A DNA stretch of 64,000 bases from Nonomuraea angiospora (GTDB taxonomy: Bacteria; Actinomycetota; Actinomycetes; Streptosporangiales; Streptosporangiaceae): positions 12,152,001-12,216,000 of the forward strand of contig NZ_JADBEK010000001.1 in NCBI RefSeq assembly GCF_014873145.1, given 5' to 3'. Below, one piece after another: positions 12,851-23,741 of the stretch. Each line of letters opens with the position of its first letter. Within the stretch, counting starts at the first letter, position 1. The notes below the pieces were generated by a model. That model worked only from the letters and a program-made list of their open reading frames with translations, was not told where the DNA came from and ran no database searches. The translations under genes were made by a program, and so were the position numbers.

Positions 12851-12944
12851 GGCCGATACGTTACCGGTCGCCATGCGCTGGTGAAGATCCACCGGTACCT
12901 TGGAGCGTTGGGCAAATCACACCTTAAGCGGAGGTATCGGGGAA

Positions 12945-14810
12945 GTGTCGAAGGCGACGTTCCGTGAACGGGCGCGTTACTGGTTCGACAACACCATGTC
13001 CAGGGGAACCGCCTCGTTGATCGGCTGGCTGGCCGTGGTGTCGGTGGGGCTGATCGTGGTCGTGGCCGGGCTCACGCTCTGGCTGGCGCCGAACGAGCCC
13101 GACGGTGTGAACGGCCCCGGACATGTGCTCTGGATCGCGCTCATGCACGCGCTGAACCCAGGCAAGCTCGCCAGTGACAAGGGCTCGACCGCGTACATGG
13201 CCGTGATGTTCGCCGGGTCGATCGGCGGCCTGTTCGTCGTCAGCATGCTCGTCGGCCTGCTGTCCAACGGGCTCAAGCAGAAGGTGGACCGCCTGCGCAG
13301 GGGGCGCTCGCGGATCGTCGAGTCCGGCCACACGGTGGTCCTCGGCTGGTCGGACCAGGTGTTCACGATCGTGGCCGAGCTGGTCAAGGCGCACGCCAGC
13401 CAGAAGGGCTCGGTCATCGCCGTCCTGGCCGACCGCGACAAGCTGGCCATGGAGGACGACATCCGCGAGGCCGTCGGGGACCTCGGCAGGACCCGGCTGG
13501 TCTGCCGCACCGGGCGGCCCACGGAGCCGCGCGACCTCGCGCTGATGAACCTGGCCACCGCCCGTTCGATCGTCGTGCTCTCGCCCGAGGGCGAGGACCC
13601 GGACGCGCACGTCATCAAGATCCTGCTCGCGCTGGCCAAGCGGCGCGGCGTCCACCCGCCGGTGGTCGCCGGGCTCGCCTCCAGCCGCAACATCGCCGCC
13701 GCCCGCCTGGCCGGCGGCGAGGACGTGCACCTCGTCGACTCCGACGACACCGCCTCCCGGCTCATCGTGCAGTCCTCGCGCCAGTCGGGCATGTCCGTCG
13801 TCTGCATGGACCTGCTGAACTTCGACGGCGGCGAGATCTACCTGCGCACGCCCAAGAAGCTCGTCGGCGTCACGTACGGGGAGGCGCTGCACGCCTACCA
13901 GACCGCCTCCGTCATCGGCCTGCGCCGGCCGACCGGCGTCGTGCTGAACCCGCCCATGGACACCGTCGTCAACGCCGACGACGAGGTCATCGTCATCGCC
14001 CACGACGACTCCCACATCCGCCTGGCCGCCGGCAAGCCGTCCATGGAGGAGTCCGCGATCGTCGAGGCGCAGGCGCCGCCCACCGAGCCCGAGCGCACGC
14101 TCCTGCTCAACTGGAACGGCCGGGCCGAGCAGATCGTCCGCTACCTCGACGGCTACGTGGCCCCCGGCTCGGTGCTGGAGATCGCCGCCGACCACCCCAA
14201 GGCCGGCACCGGCCTGGCGGGCCTGCGCAACCTCACCGTGAACGTCAAGGACTGCGACACCACCGACAGGTACGCCCTGGAGTCCCTCGGCGTCGGCCTC
14301 TTCCAGCACGTCATCGTGCTCTCCGACGACCGCTTCGCCGCCCACCACGCCGACACGCGCACGCTCATGACGCTGCTGCAGCTCCGCGACATGCAGAGCA
14401 CGCTCGGCGAGCACTACTCGATCGTCAGCGAGATGCACGACGAGAACAACCGGGCCCTGGCCGAGGTCACCGAGGCCGACGACATCGTGATCAGCGACAC
14501 CGTCATCGGCCTGCTGCTCGCCCAGCTCGCCGAGAACCGGCACCTGGCGGACGTGTTCGGCTACCTGTTCGACTCGCGCGGCTCGGAGATCTACCCCAGG
14601 CCCGCCGCCTCCTACGTCAAGACGGGGACGCGCGTGCACTTCGCCACGGTCGTGGAGTCGGCCAGGCGCAGGGGCGAGACCGCCATCGGCTACCGCAACG
14701 CCCTGGCGCGCAACGACCCGCCGCACTACGGCATCGTCCTCAATCCCGACAAGTCCGAGCCCGTCGTCCTGAACCACGGCGATTCGGTGATCGTCCTCGC
14801 CGAGCGCTGA
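12945..14810 (+). CDS. CASTOR/POLLUX-like ion channel with RCK (TrkA-N) domains
   Basis: 621 residues. Two transmembrane helices flank a pore-like segment (IGWLAVVSVGLIVVVAGLTLWL and AVMFAGSIGGLFVVSMLVGLL), followed by tandem Rossmann-type RCK regions, the first starting GHTVVLGWSDQVFTIVAEL and the second TLLLNWNGRAEQIVRYL. This is the architecture of the CASTOR/POLLUX-related (DUF1012) channels, which pass cations and are gated by cytoplasmic RCK rings. GTG 12945 is chosen because it begins just before the amphipathic RERARYWFDNTMS; an in-frame TTG at 12900 is possible. GGAGG precedes by ten bases. The neighbouring kinase is divergent from it; a regulatory link between them is only a possibility. 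Confidence 0.85.
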   Translation: MSKATFRERARYWFDNTMSRGTASLIGWLAVVSVGLIVVVAGLTLWLAPNEPDGVNGPGHVLWIALMHALNPGKLASDKGSTAYMAVMFAGSIGGLFVVSMLVGLLSNGLKQKVDRLRRGRSRIVESGHTVVLGWSDQVFTIVAELVKAHASQKGSVIAVLADRDKLAMEDDIREAVGDLGRTRLVCRTGRPTEPRDLALMNLATARSIVVLSPEGEDPDAHVIKILLALAKRRGVHPPVVAGLASSRNIAAARLAGGEDVHLVDSDDTASRLIVQSSRQSGMSVVCMDLLNFDGGEIYLRTPKKLVGVTYGEALHAYQTASVIGLRRPTGVVLNPPMDTVVNADDEVIVIAHDDSHIRLAAGKPSMEESAIVEAQAPPTEPERTLLLNWNGRAEQIVRYLDGYVAPGSVLEIAADHPKAGTGLAGLRNLTVNVKDCDTTDRYALESLGVGLFQHVIVLSDDRFAAHHADTRTLMTLLQLRDMQSTLGEHYSIVSEMHDENNRALAEVTEADDIVISDTVIGLLLAQLAENRHLADVFGYLFDSRGSEIYPRPAASYVKTGTRVHFATVVESARRRGETAIGYRNALARNDPPHYGIVLNPDKSEPVVLNHGDSVIVLAER

Positions 14811-14828: not shown

Positions 14829-15767
<939 letters not shown>

Positions 15768-15848: not shown

Positions 15849-17552
15849 GTGGCCATCGACCTGGTGTTACGCAAAGACTGGAACGCCCGCCCGCCGCGCG
15901 GCGACTACACGCAGCTCGACTCCACCAAGGGAGTGAAGGTCCACTACACGGGCGGCAGAGTCGACCCCGGCATCGTCTCCGACCACAGCGGGTGCGTCTC
16001 GCTGGTGCGCTCGATCCAGGCGTTCCACATGGACGACAACGGCTGGATCGACATCGGCTACTGCGTCGACGAGGAGACCGAGCTCCTCACCCGGCAGGGG
16101 TGGAAGTCGTACCGGGACCTGCGCGCGGGCGACGTCGCGCTCACGCTCGACCACGGCACGGGCATGTCCGAGTGGCAGCCCGTGCTGGAGGTGTGCGTGT
16201 TCCCGGCGATGGAGCGGGAGATGATCCGGATGGAGGGGCCCGCCCACTCCTCCCTGACCACCCCCCATCACCGCTGGCCCGTCGAGCGCCAGGCGGGCGA
16301 GGACACGCGGCGCCTGTGGGTGACCACCGAGACCATCGGTCACCGGGACCGCATCCCGGTCGCGGCGCCCTGCGCCGACCTGCCGGCCGAGCCGAAGTGG
16401 TCGGACGCCTTCGTGGAGCTGGTCGCGTGGTTCGCGGCCGGGGGCGAGTCGAGCGCGGGCGCCGTCGCGATCCACCGGTCGCGGCGGGACCCGGCGCAGC
16501 TCATGCGCGTCCGCGCCGCGCTCCACGGCGTCTTCGGCCCTCCCGCTGGGGGCGCGTCCCGCTGGAGGGAGACGGCCAAGGACGATCTCGTCGAGTTCCG
16601 GCTCCCGGCCGACGCCGGACGGCAACTGGTCGAGGTGGCGCCCGGCAGGGTGCCGGGGTACGCGTTCCTCCTGTCACTGACCCGGGCCCAGCTCGCCCTG
16701 TTCCTGGAGACCTCCCTGACGGCGGGCGACGCCGGGCGCGACAGGCTCGCCCGCGAGGACCGGGCGGCGGCGGAGGCGTACATGTTCGCCGCGCTGCTGT
16801 CGGGGTCGGGAGCGGCCATGAGCCGCCTGCCCGAGACCGGCATGTGGCTGACCACGATCCGGCGCCGGCACTCCGTCATGCCCCGGCCCGCCCTGAGGAT
16901 CCGGAGGGAGACCTACCGCGGCCGGATCTGGTGTCCCCGGACCGAGAACCAGAGCTGGCTGGCCCGCCGCGAGGGGACCGTCTACTTCACCGGCAACACC
17001 ATGGTCGCCTGCCCGCACCGCAAGGTGTTCGAGGGGCGAGGTCTGCACCACCTGCCCGCCGCCAACGGCCCCGGGCTCAACGCCGGCCACTACGCGGTGC
17101 TGGGGCTCGTCGGCAACGCGGGGCTCGTCCAGCCGCCCGACGGGGTGCTGCACGCGGTCCTGGACGCCGTCCAGTACCTGCGCGACAAGGGCGGCGCGGG
17201 CACGGAGATCAAGGGGCACCGCGACGGCTACTCGACCGACTGCCCCGGCGACCCGCTCTACGACTGGATCCGGCGCGGCGCGCCCCGGCCGGGCGGGACC
17301 CCGCCCGCGGAGCCGGACGCGCCGTCGTTCCCCGGGCGGCTGCTGAAGTATCCGCCGGTCATGCACGGCGAGGACGTGCGCACCTGGCAGGCGCGGATGA
17401 GCAAGCGCGGCTTCGACCTGGCCGTGGACGGGGCGTACGGCGCCGGGTCGCGCGAGGCGTGCCGCAGGTTCCAGCGGCGGCAGGGCATCGAGGACGACGG
17501 GGTCGTGGGCCCCCTGACCTGGCGGCTGACGTGGGAGGCGCCCGCGTCGTGA
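15849..17552 (+). CDS. Peptidoglycan N-acetylmuramoyl-L-alanine amidase interrupted by an intein
   Basis: 567 codons, of which 312 are an intein; the spliced host would be 255 residues. The host is an Amidase_2/PGRP domain: zinc His in VHYTGG (residue 32), then DIGY (68-71) that continues after the intein as TMVACPHRKVFEGRG, NAGHYAVLGLVGN, and the second zinc His and Cys in EIKGHRDGYSTDCPGDPLYDWI. A C-terminal PG_binding_1 domain follows (VMHGEDVRTWQARMSKRGFD to GVVGPLTW). The enzyme cuts the MurNAc-L-Ala bond. There is no signal peptide, as in phage endolysins, so the gene may have phage ancestry. GTG start, CGGAG eight bases upstream. The unspliced protein should be inactive because the intein splits the conserved DIGY-CPH loop. 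Confidence 0.9.
   Translation: MAIDLVLRKDWNARPPRGDYTQLDSTKGVKVHYTGGRVDPGIVSDHSGCVSLVRSIQAFHMDDNGWIDIGYCVDEETELLTRQGWKSYRDLRAGDVALTLDHGTGMSEWQPVLEVCVFPAMEREMIRMEGPAHSSLTTPHHRWPVERQAGEDTRRLWVTTETIGHRDRIPVAAPCADLPAEPKWSDAFVELVAWFAAGGESSAGAVAIHRSRRDPAQLMRVRAALHGVFGPPAGGASRWRETAKDDLVEFRLPADAGRQLVEVAPGRVPGYAFLLSLTRAQLALFLETSLTAGDAGRDRLAREDRAAAEAYMFAALLSGSGAAMSRLPETGMWLTTIRRRHSVMPRPALRIRRETYRGRIWCPRTENQSWLARREGTVYFTGNTMVACPHRKVFEGRGLHHLPAANGPGLNAGHYAVLGLVGNAGLVQPPDGVLHAVLDAVQYLRDKGGAGTEIKGHRDGYSTDCPGDPLYDWIRRGAPRPGGTPPAEPDAPSFPGRLLKYPPVMHGEDVRTWQARMSKRGFDLAVDGAYGAGSREACRRFQRRQGIEDDGVVGPLTWRLTWEAPAS
16062..16997 (+). other. Intein (312 residues, degenerate LAGLIDADG endonuclease) inside the amidase
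   Basis: In-frame insertion from Cys1 (codon 16062) to Asn312 (codon 16995), followed by Thr (+1). Block A is CVDEETELLTRQGWKSYRDL, block B is SSLTTPHHRW (TxxH at 66-69), block F is YRGRIWCPRTENQSWLARRE and block G is GTVYFTGN. The penultimate residue is Gly rather than the usual His, which is tolerated in some inteins. Two LAGLIDADG-like segments, AFVELVAWFAAGGES (116-130) and LALFLETSLTAGDAG (211-225), lie between blocks B and F, but the expected acidic metal ligands look lost or shifted, so the endonuclease is probably dead while splicing residues Cys1, Asn312 and Thr+1 are intact. Confidence 0.88.
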
Positions 17553-17653: not shown

Positions 17654-19380
17654 ATGGAACTGGCCACGGGGTTCGAGTCCATCTCGCGAGACGGCTGGCG
17701 GGCGCTGGCGGTCGAGGTCCTGCGCAAGTCGGGCATCGAGACGGAGGCGCCGGAGGAGGCGCTGTCCACCGCGACCTACGACGGGGTGACGGTCGCGCCG
17801 CTCTACGACCTGGACGACCTGCCCGGCGATCCCGGGCTGCCCGGTGAGGCGCCTTACGTGCGCGGGGCCCGCGGCACCCCAGGCTGGGACGTGCGCCAGC
17901 GGCACGCCGTGGCCGACCCCGAGGCGGTGCTGGCCGACCTGGAGAACGGGGTCACCTCGCTGTGGCTCGTCGTCGGCGACGGCGCGATCCCGGTGGACGC
18001 GCTGGGCGCCGTGCTCAAGGACGTCTACCTCGACCTGGCGCCGGTCGTGCTGGAGGCCGGGGAGCGGGTACGGGAGGCCGCCGAGGTCCTGTTCGGGCGC
18101 GGCAGCGCGGTGCGGGGCAACCTGGGCGCCTCCGCCGTAGGGGGTCCTGGGCTGGAGCTGGCCCGGCGCTGCGTGGACGGGTTCCCCGGACTCGGGGCCG
18201 TCACCGTCGACGCCACCCCCTTCCACGACGCGGGCGGCAGCGACGCCGAGGAGCTGGGCTGCTCGATCGCCCGGGGCGTCGCCGAGCTGCGGGCGCTCAC
18301 GGACGGCGGGCTCTCTGTCGAGCAAGCGCTAGGGCAGATCGAGTTCCGCTACGCCGCCACCGCCGACCAGTTCGCCACCATCGCCAAGCTGCGCGCGGCC
18401 CGCCGGCTGTGGGCCAGGGTCGCCGAGGTCTGTGACGCCGCCGGGCACGGAGGCCAGCGGCAGCACGCGGTGACCAGCTCGGCCATGATGACCGCCCGCG
18501 ACCCCTGGGTCAACATGCTGCGCACCACCCTGGCCTGCTTCGCCGCCGGGGTCGGCGGCGCGGAGGCGGTCACGGTGCAGCCGTTCGACGCCTGCCTCGG
18601 GCTGCCGGACGCCTTCTCGCAGCGCATCGCCCGCAACACGCAGGCGCTGCTGCTGGAGGAGTCGGGCCTCGGGCGCGTCATCGACCCCGCCGGCGGCTCC
18701 TGGTACGTCGAGCGCCGCACCGCCGACCTCGCCGAACGCGCGTGGGCCTGGTTCCAGGAGATCGAGGCGGCGGGCGGGATCACCCGGGCCGGCGGGCTGG
18801 TGGCGGACCGGATCGCCGCCACCCGCGCCCGCCGCGCCGACGACGTCGCCCACCGCCGCCTGCCCATCACGGGCGTGAGCGAGTTCCCCGACGTGCACGA
18901 GAAGCCCGTACGCCCGCCCACGCCGGCGCAGGCCGCCTCCGAGACGGGCGGCCTGCCCCGGATCCGCTACGCCGAGGAGTTCGAGGCCCTGCGCGACCTG
19001 GCCGACGCGCAGCCCGAGCGGCCCACGGTGTTCCTCGCCACGATCGGGCCCGTGGCCGCCCACACCGCGCGGGCCGCGTTCGCCGCCAACCTGTTCCAGG
19101 CGGGCGGGCTGGACACCGAGACCGCCGGTCCCGGGGCCGACCCCGAGCAGATCGCCACCGCGTTCGCCGTGAGCGGCGCCTCCGTCGCCTGCCTGTGCTC
19201 GACCGACAAGCTCTACGCCCAGCACGCCGCCGCCGTCGCCACCGCACTGCGCAAGGCCGGTGCGAGGAAAGTCTGGCTGGCGGGGAAGGGGGAGTACGAA
19301 GGCGTGGACGGAAACCTCTACGCGGGCTGCGACGCGCTGGCCGTGCTCCGCGAGACCTTCGACGACCTGGAGGTGACCCG

Positions 19381-19384
<4 letters not shown>
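17654..19384 (+). CDS. mutA: Methylmalonyl-CoA mutase, small (non-catalytic) subunit
   Basis: 576 residues; family members are usually 600-640. It shares the mutase TIM-barrel pattern with the large subunit ([38 protein letters not shown]) but its C-terminal B12-like domain lacks the DxHxxG cobalamin ligand motif, as expected for the non-catalytic chain. With MutB it interconverts (R)-methylmalonyl-CoA and succinyl-CoA, feeding propionate or odd-chain carbon to the TCA cycle or supplying extender units for polyketides. Its TGA overlaps the mutB ATG (ATGA). Expression from the leaderless promoter directly upstream is likely. Confidence 0.93.

Positions 19385-23741
<4,357 letters not shown>

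Follow-up and report, generated by a model that had tools for sequence, protein, structure and literature searches.

Evidence for a mobile, decaying and dispensable intein in a chromosomal peptidoglycan amidase gene of Nonomuraea angiospora

The window considered here, a stretch of 64,000 nucleotides of Nonomuraea angiospora located at 12.15-12.22 Mb on a single-contig 13.09-Mb chromosome (NZ_JADBEK010000001.1), contains a gene for an N-acetylmuramoyl-L-alanine amidase that is interrupted by an intein (Table 1). Its open reading frame, of 567 codons plus the stop, encodes a 567-residue precursor, in which 312 in-frame codons stand between the stretch DIGY, whose last base is 16061, and TMVACPHRKVFEGRG, which resumes the motif at 16998; the two exteins together make 255 residues. 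The host is an Amidase_2/PGRP-type zinc amidase, with the PGRP fold, a His/His/Cys set of zinc ligands and the motif Tyr, whose catalytic roles are assumed here from T7 lysozyme and the PGRPs. This Tyr, presumably the counterpart of Tyr46 of T7 lysozyme and Tyr78 of PGRP-LB, is the last residue ahead of the intein and invariant in the amidase alignment (A1), and the PGRP structure alignments break directly behind it. The Pfam model Amidase_2 gave no match on the window protein, and a score below its cut-off on an intein-free ("empty") relative (P0122). Among the matches listed, the closest named protein relative is from Nonomuraea angiospora (95%), and the gene is single-copy in its own genome, besides two weak partial matches.

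Table 1. Features of the amidase gene, its intein and the neighbouring genes in the window.
Feature	Position	Strand	Details and basis
Castor/Pollux-type ion channel gene	12900..14810	+	Upstream, syntenic; Pfam
IF-2B family gene (MtnA-like)	14829..15767	+	Upstream, syntenic; Pfam
Intein-bearing N-acetylmuramoyl-L-alanine amidase gene	15849..17552	+	PGRP/Amidase_2-type domain and C-terminal PG_binding_1
N-extein	15849..16061	+	Zn-ligand His32 (15942-15944), conserved Tyr71 (16059-16061); PGRP alignments
Intein	16062..16997	+	312 aa, Cys1 (codon from 16062) to Asn312
Intein block A	16062..16100	+	Includes Cys1
Intein block B	16242..16283	+	Thr67-x-x-His70, Trp72 (B:12 of the class-3 triplet, 16275-16277); block positions after PMC3196547
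Degenerate LAGLIDADG endonuclease domain	16293..16892	+	Gly127 (16440-16442) in place of acid 1 and Gly222 (16725-16727) in place of acid 2; motif columns, dN/dS, fold
Cys291, block F position 4	16932..16934	+	Class-3 nucleophile position, 21 residues ahead of the terminal Asn
Intein block G	16974..16997	+	Thr310 (G:5), penultimate Gly311, terminal Asn312 (16995-16997)
C-extein	16998..17549	+	First residue +1 Thr (codon from 16998); Zn-ligands His457 (17217-17219) and Cys465 (17241-17243)
PG_binding_1 domain, within C-extein	17367-17525	+	
Methylmalonyl-CoA mutase family gene (first subunit)	17654..19384	+	Downstream, syntenic; Pfam
Methylmalonyl-CoA mutase and B12-binding domain gene	19387..21528 (start approximate)	+	Downstream, syntenic; Pfam

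The insert has the anatomy of an intein, as a first account made from the letters of the DNA (hereafter the sequence-only reading) had claimed: blocks A, B, F and G are all present, together with Cys1, the His of block B (B:10), the terminal Asn312 and the +1 Thr, and the predicted model adopts the Hint fold. In the model of the whole precursor, the amidase is split by the Hint domain, and a LAGLIDADG domain lies within a loop of the latter. The penultimate residue is Gly, in place of His, and the triplet Trp(B:12)-Cys(F:4)-Thr(G:5), or WCT, absent from that earlier account, is complete. Conservation was followed in 121 proteins (the window's and its 120 listed relatives), filtered for a C[AV]D start and a TGN[ST] end down to 111, so that Cys1, Thr310, Gly311 and Asn312 are conserved by construction; independently of the filter, His70, Trp72 and Cys291 are each found in 111/111 rows and Thr67 in 110/111. 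Adding 22 locus copies to the 111 listed proteins, the triplet occurs in 133/133 aligned rows (overlapping sets, with the Thr of G:5 forced by the filter). As for the ten rows dropped, P0065 retains, by eye, all of His70, Trp72, Cys291 and Thr67, P0057 is a fragment cut at its N-terminus, the intein of P0085 has no C-terminal end, that of P0119 has lost its first residue and terminates in TGP, P0105 and P0107 have no intein at the window's amidase site, and the phage-type relatives P0116, P0117, P0118 and P0120 all have Cys1, the His and Trp of block B, a Cys 21 residues before the Asn, and TGN. The intein alone gave no match in Pfam, NCBIfam or PDB sequences, and a profile of the whole alignment retrieved only weak intein matches from the PDB (E about 0.02, block B region); therefore, the identity of the insert rests on its motifs, the empty alleles and the fold.

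The empty alleles place the insertion exactly within the amidase motif, in agreement with the sequence-only reading. The joined product has 933 relatives, and in the best 120 listed the motif runs uninterrupted across the junction in 120/120, the residue after the motif Tyr being Ser in 109 and Thr in 11. In the DNA of near relatives the empty site reads TAC/TCx (the slash marking the boundary), and in the window TAC/TGC...AAC/ACC. The intein, in turn, has 319 relatives at E<=0.001 and, among the 120 listed, 110 have an insert with the same ends inside an amidase, so the insertion is not a matter of chance. Of 345 genomes searched in the order, 308 have an amidase match (E<=1e-8), many of these matches being weak and non-orthologous, and 69 an intein match (16 of 70 genera); in 66 of these 69 (15 genera), the intein lies in the window's amidase at the window's site. 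Within the genus, 17 of 54 genomes are occupied and 37 are empty at the same locus. The MtnA-like IF-2B family gene is present in the fetched stretches of 52 of the 53 other genus genomes (all except G178). The two mutase genes are present in 51 (first) and 50 (second) of them, their misses being explained by stretch or contig ends, and the channel gene is present in 44. This synteny indicates that occupied and empty alleles occupy one locus.

The three remaining genomes with an intein match have it elsewhere. At locus L123 (G043:C20), an intein relative (36%) sits in a different host gene. At locus L157 (G192:C83), the host is a glycoside-hydrolase-like gene, of glycoside hydrolase family 5 (GH5) type by eye and possibly a cellulase, and the intein apparently starts with Pro and carries WCT-like residues. 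At locus L148 (G323:C1), a 418-codon frame is an orphan intein remnant in which Cys1, the terminal Asn and the exteins are gone and acidic endonuclease motifs remain.

The endonuclease motifs, already described as decayed in the sequence-only reading, have indeed lost the acid that an active LAGLIDADG enzyme carries in both of them: the columns hold Glu and Asp in intact relatives and Gly twice in the window. Among the 111 aligned inteins, 57 keep both acids and 34 neither, and acid-less inteins can be as short as 256 residues; the 17 genus alleles comprise eight with both acids, three with one and six with none. The proposed "retention without homing" fits the window and its sister allele in G158, but the eight alleles with both acids suggest that homing may continue elsewhere. 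The ratio of nonsynonymous to synonymous substitution rates (dN/dS, pairwise Nei-Gojobori method, NG86) was calculated for nine pairs with some shared rows. In the middle (endonuclease) region, it amounts to 0.04, 0.11 and 0.21 when both rows are intact, 0.34 and 0.43 in two mixed pairs, and 0.39, 0.61, 0.58 and 0.76 when neither row has both acids, with 0.02-0.29 for the splice blocks and 0.23-0.41 for the exteins over all nine pairs. Therefore, the splicing blocks and the enzyme are constrained while the middle relaxes, which may be taken as an indirect sign of working splicing in nature, and the low values of the intact endonucleases argue for selection for their function. A single syntenic gene in one genus offers alleles without the intein together with intact, decaying and shortened ones, making the homing cycle directly testable.

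The history of the intein was confronted with that of its surroundings by means of a tree of three flanking genes (IF-2B-like, first mutase and channel) with 57 rows, 21 occupied and 36 empty, built without G184, the paralogue L083 and the loci L120, L122 and L123, and with four outgroup rows chosen among the occupied ones. On this tree the presence of the intein needs 12 changes, at least ten of them forced by starred branches. Furthermore, the intein data of 17 rows (all but one of the 17 genus alleles, and G044, with G178 and L117-L119 dropped for their short flanks) reject the flanking-gene topology, with a log-likelihood difference (delta lnL) of 129 and p 1e-6 in the approximately unbiased (AU) test, and the topology is still rejected by the nine intact inteins only (delta lnL 27, p 8.7e-4). 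Within the genus, a +1 Thr is found in 12/17 occupied versus 2/36 empty alleles, and Thr-Met at +1 and +2 in 6/17 versus 0/36 (counts uncorrected for kinship), as flanking-codon co-conversion would leave.

Several points weigh against a mobile, still splicing intein. Splicing is a prediction from sequence and model; the dN/dS pairs share rows and have wide single-pair intervals (0.21-0.75 for the middle of the window/G158 pair); the changes on the tree count gains and losses indistinguishably, and the genus rows alone (n=53) also need 12, a number as low being reached in 79 of 1000 shuffles. The extein data are weakly informative and disfavour the flanking tree in one row set (p 0.028, 17 rows; p is 0.30 and 0.092 for the remaining two sets), so exchange of the whole gene is possible. 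Only five of the 20 inner branches of the intein tree are starred and its decaying rows evolve fast, so some of its disagreement with the host tree could be an artefact of this poor resolution and fast change. The +1 Thr pattern ignores relatedness. The pair G137/G170, whose near-identical inteins first suggested a recent transfer, was left as weak evidence by its DNA profile, in which the inteins are 97.2% identical versus flanks mostly at 0.91-0.97 per 150-base window.

Is the intein then ancestral, inherited vertically and precisely lost many times independently, with no recent homing? The same site is occupied in 15 of the 70 genera of the order, and intein and flanking-gene distances are weakly correlated (Mantel r 0.28; 16 rows; 129 of 5000 shuffles as high), which is what such a history would predict. 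However, the flanking-gene tree is rejected by the intein data, even by the intact inteins only, and the intact endonucleases have low dN/dS, which makes vertical descent of this kind unlikely.

The best explanation as a whole, held with high confidence, is that of a mobile, decaying and dispensable intein whose host is a chromosomal amidase gene belonging to the genus and not to a prophage. A mobile intein of phage-associated type would have entered the chromosomal peptidoglycan amidase gene of the order at the codon that directly follows the conserved catalytic-motif Tyr. Splicing would excise the 312 residues and join DIGY to TMVAC, restoring the 255-residue zinc amidase, and the unspliced precursor would be inactive because its catalytic sheet would be split. 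Inteins with an intact endonuclease may spread across lineages by homing or recombination and decay later, and the window would represent a late stage, in which the endonuclease is dead and splicing persists because the host enzyme is maintained. For the host, the intein is presumably dispensable.

The sequence-only reading had instead suggested that splicing could act as a post-translational safety for a lytic enzyme. In a reading of this kind, the intein would be retained as a safety or stress-gated switch holding the amidase off until splicing. Consistent with this, the intein splits the catalytic motif, the splice residues outlast the endonuclease (9/17 genus alleles lack at least one acid), and its splicing-centre cysteines could respond to the redox state, which has been reported for DnaBi1, a class-3 intein (PMC6195587). 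Nevertheless, in 37 of the 54 genus genomes the locus holds the gene with no intein, which leaves the claim of a needed safety unsupported and the switch disfavoured, the presence of the intein needs the 12 changes mentioned, and a cytosolic enzyme would be expected to reach little wall peptidoglycan; no signal peptide is apparent by eye in the window amidase, as had been stated. A retained safety is therefore very unlikely. A Hint/BIL-like autoprocessing domain, one that cleaves or is simply retained and does not ligate, is a hardly credible alternative to an intein: the penultimate Gly, the lack of a Pfam or NCBIfam match for the intein alone and the match of BIL structures to the predicted model would fit it, but there are exact empty alleles, the terminal Asn, the +1 Ser/Thr and the block B His are all retained, a LAGLIDADG domain is present, and a penultimate Gly is known from a splicing phage intein, in which its change to His slows splicing (PMC5050341, in part).

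Among known inteins, the endonuclease-bearing PhoVMA/TliVMA and PI-PfuI (structures 7qst, 7qsu and 1dq3) are 14% identical to that of the window, which unlike them has a cell-wall amidase as host and has lost its endonuclease acids. The complete WCT at B:12, F:4 and G:5 is shared with class 3 inteins (mycobacterial DnaBi1, MchDnaB1, AceL NrdHF and phage Bethlehem DnaB); 6zgq, grouped here with them, is the endonuclease-free intein with the top Z score against the window model among 50 entries listed (Z 18.3, root-mean-square deviation 1.9 over 146), and the spacing of 21 from F:4 to the Asn equals that of Cys118-Asn139 in M. smegmatis DnaBi1 (excerpt of PMC6195587). Class 3 is defined by the triplet (PMC3196547) and a missing N-terminal nucleophile (PMC3196547, PMC7891396), and class-1 inteins with a Cys at F:4 are polyphyletic according to PMC3196547. 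Unlike class 3, the window intein has a block-B Thr and a Cys1, the latter present in all aligned rows, as the filter forces, and an assignment to class 3 was rejected because of it. It is best read as an intein that has both Cys1 and the full WCT triplet, and that may splice by either the class-1 or the class-3 mechanism. Some inteins reportedly pair a position-1 nucleophile with the WCT (Tori and Perler, 2011), and the arrangement is natural material on the origin of class-3 splicing.

The closest inteins in phage records lie mostly within TerL and portal genes of Gordonia phages, as full-length matches at 33-39% (13 GenBank phage records, >=80% query cover), and metagenomic phage proteins of portal/tail type (P0116-P0118, P0120) have inteins at 47-50% to the window's, sharing Cys1, WCT and TGN; these hosts are packaging and structural proteins, unlike the amidase. 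A cell-wall hydrolase is indeed the unusual host that the sequence-only reading had seen in it: nucleic-acid-binding proteins are 84.9% of bacterial intein hosts in a data set discussed in PMC5050341 (in part), none of 224 mycobacteriophage endolysins surveyed in PMC3314691 had an intein, and literature searches limited to excerpts of open-access PubMed Central (PMC) papers gave no recognisable report of an intein in a peptidoglycan amidase. In many species the intein lies in the catalytic centre of a cell-wall hydrolase, where the domain models used here miss it. The suggested descent from a phage endolysin is favoured by the extein matches to the phage endolysin family phrog_1493 (E 4e-43) and to endolysins of Streptomyces phages (39% over 97% of the query, at most 47% over 64%), the window amidase differing from this family, as from other PGRP/Amidase_2 zinc amidases, by the intein split; on the other hand, its four nearest neighbours (channel, IF-2B and two mutase subunits) are genus-conserved metabolic or channel genes without PHROG match, and they adjoin it in most other genus genomes.

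Amidases also carry another intein, distantly related to that of the window (BLASTP 21%, E 2e-4; best 5.6e-9, for the intein of G173), found in P0105 and 18 further amidase-type proteins (P0242-P0259), the PhoH-family protein P0260 being set aside. It ends directly ahead of a CPG/CPE stretch in 17/18 (most by pattern, eight in full) and is located at a CPHG stretch in P0251; the Cys of CPG/CPE is presumed to be the zinc-ligand Cys, which would double as the +1 residue. P0242 is named Planobispora rosea, some members of the set have a glucosaminidase or Phage_lysozyme2 domain by Pfam, and others may be guessed from their domains to be Firmicutes or phage lysins. When this allele was searched for in the 345 genomes, the places listed matched almost exclusively the first half of the query (to position 153 or 159). 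Suspected carriers were G159, G167, G180 and G184, from partial matches or a long frame; G159, G167 and G184 are empty at site a, the last at both sites when read to the stop, and G180 also has no intein at site a and is truncated by a contig end. Locus L172 (G184:C190) is an empty amidase allele whose frame stops ahead of the peptidoglycan-binding domain.

A broader proposal, speculative and rather improbable, is that amidases are a recurrent non-nucleic-acid target of inteins, two distantly related families having struck the active site, one at the motif Tyr and one at the zinc-ligand Cys. The family at the amidase Tyr would combine class-1 (Cys1) and class-3 (Cys F:4) nucleophiles, splicing might start from either, and could be redox-gated, switching a wall enzyme on after changed conditions in endonuclease-dead lineages.

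As for the rest of the surroundings, PADLOC gave no match, and no plasmid record had one place covering 80% of the query. A protein-kinase gene (Pkinase, Pfam) on the minus strand, at 21522-23741, contains tandem repeats of 18 and 15 bases (22410-22588 and 22640-22755 of the window), which encode a Gly/His/Phe-rich repetitive linker.
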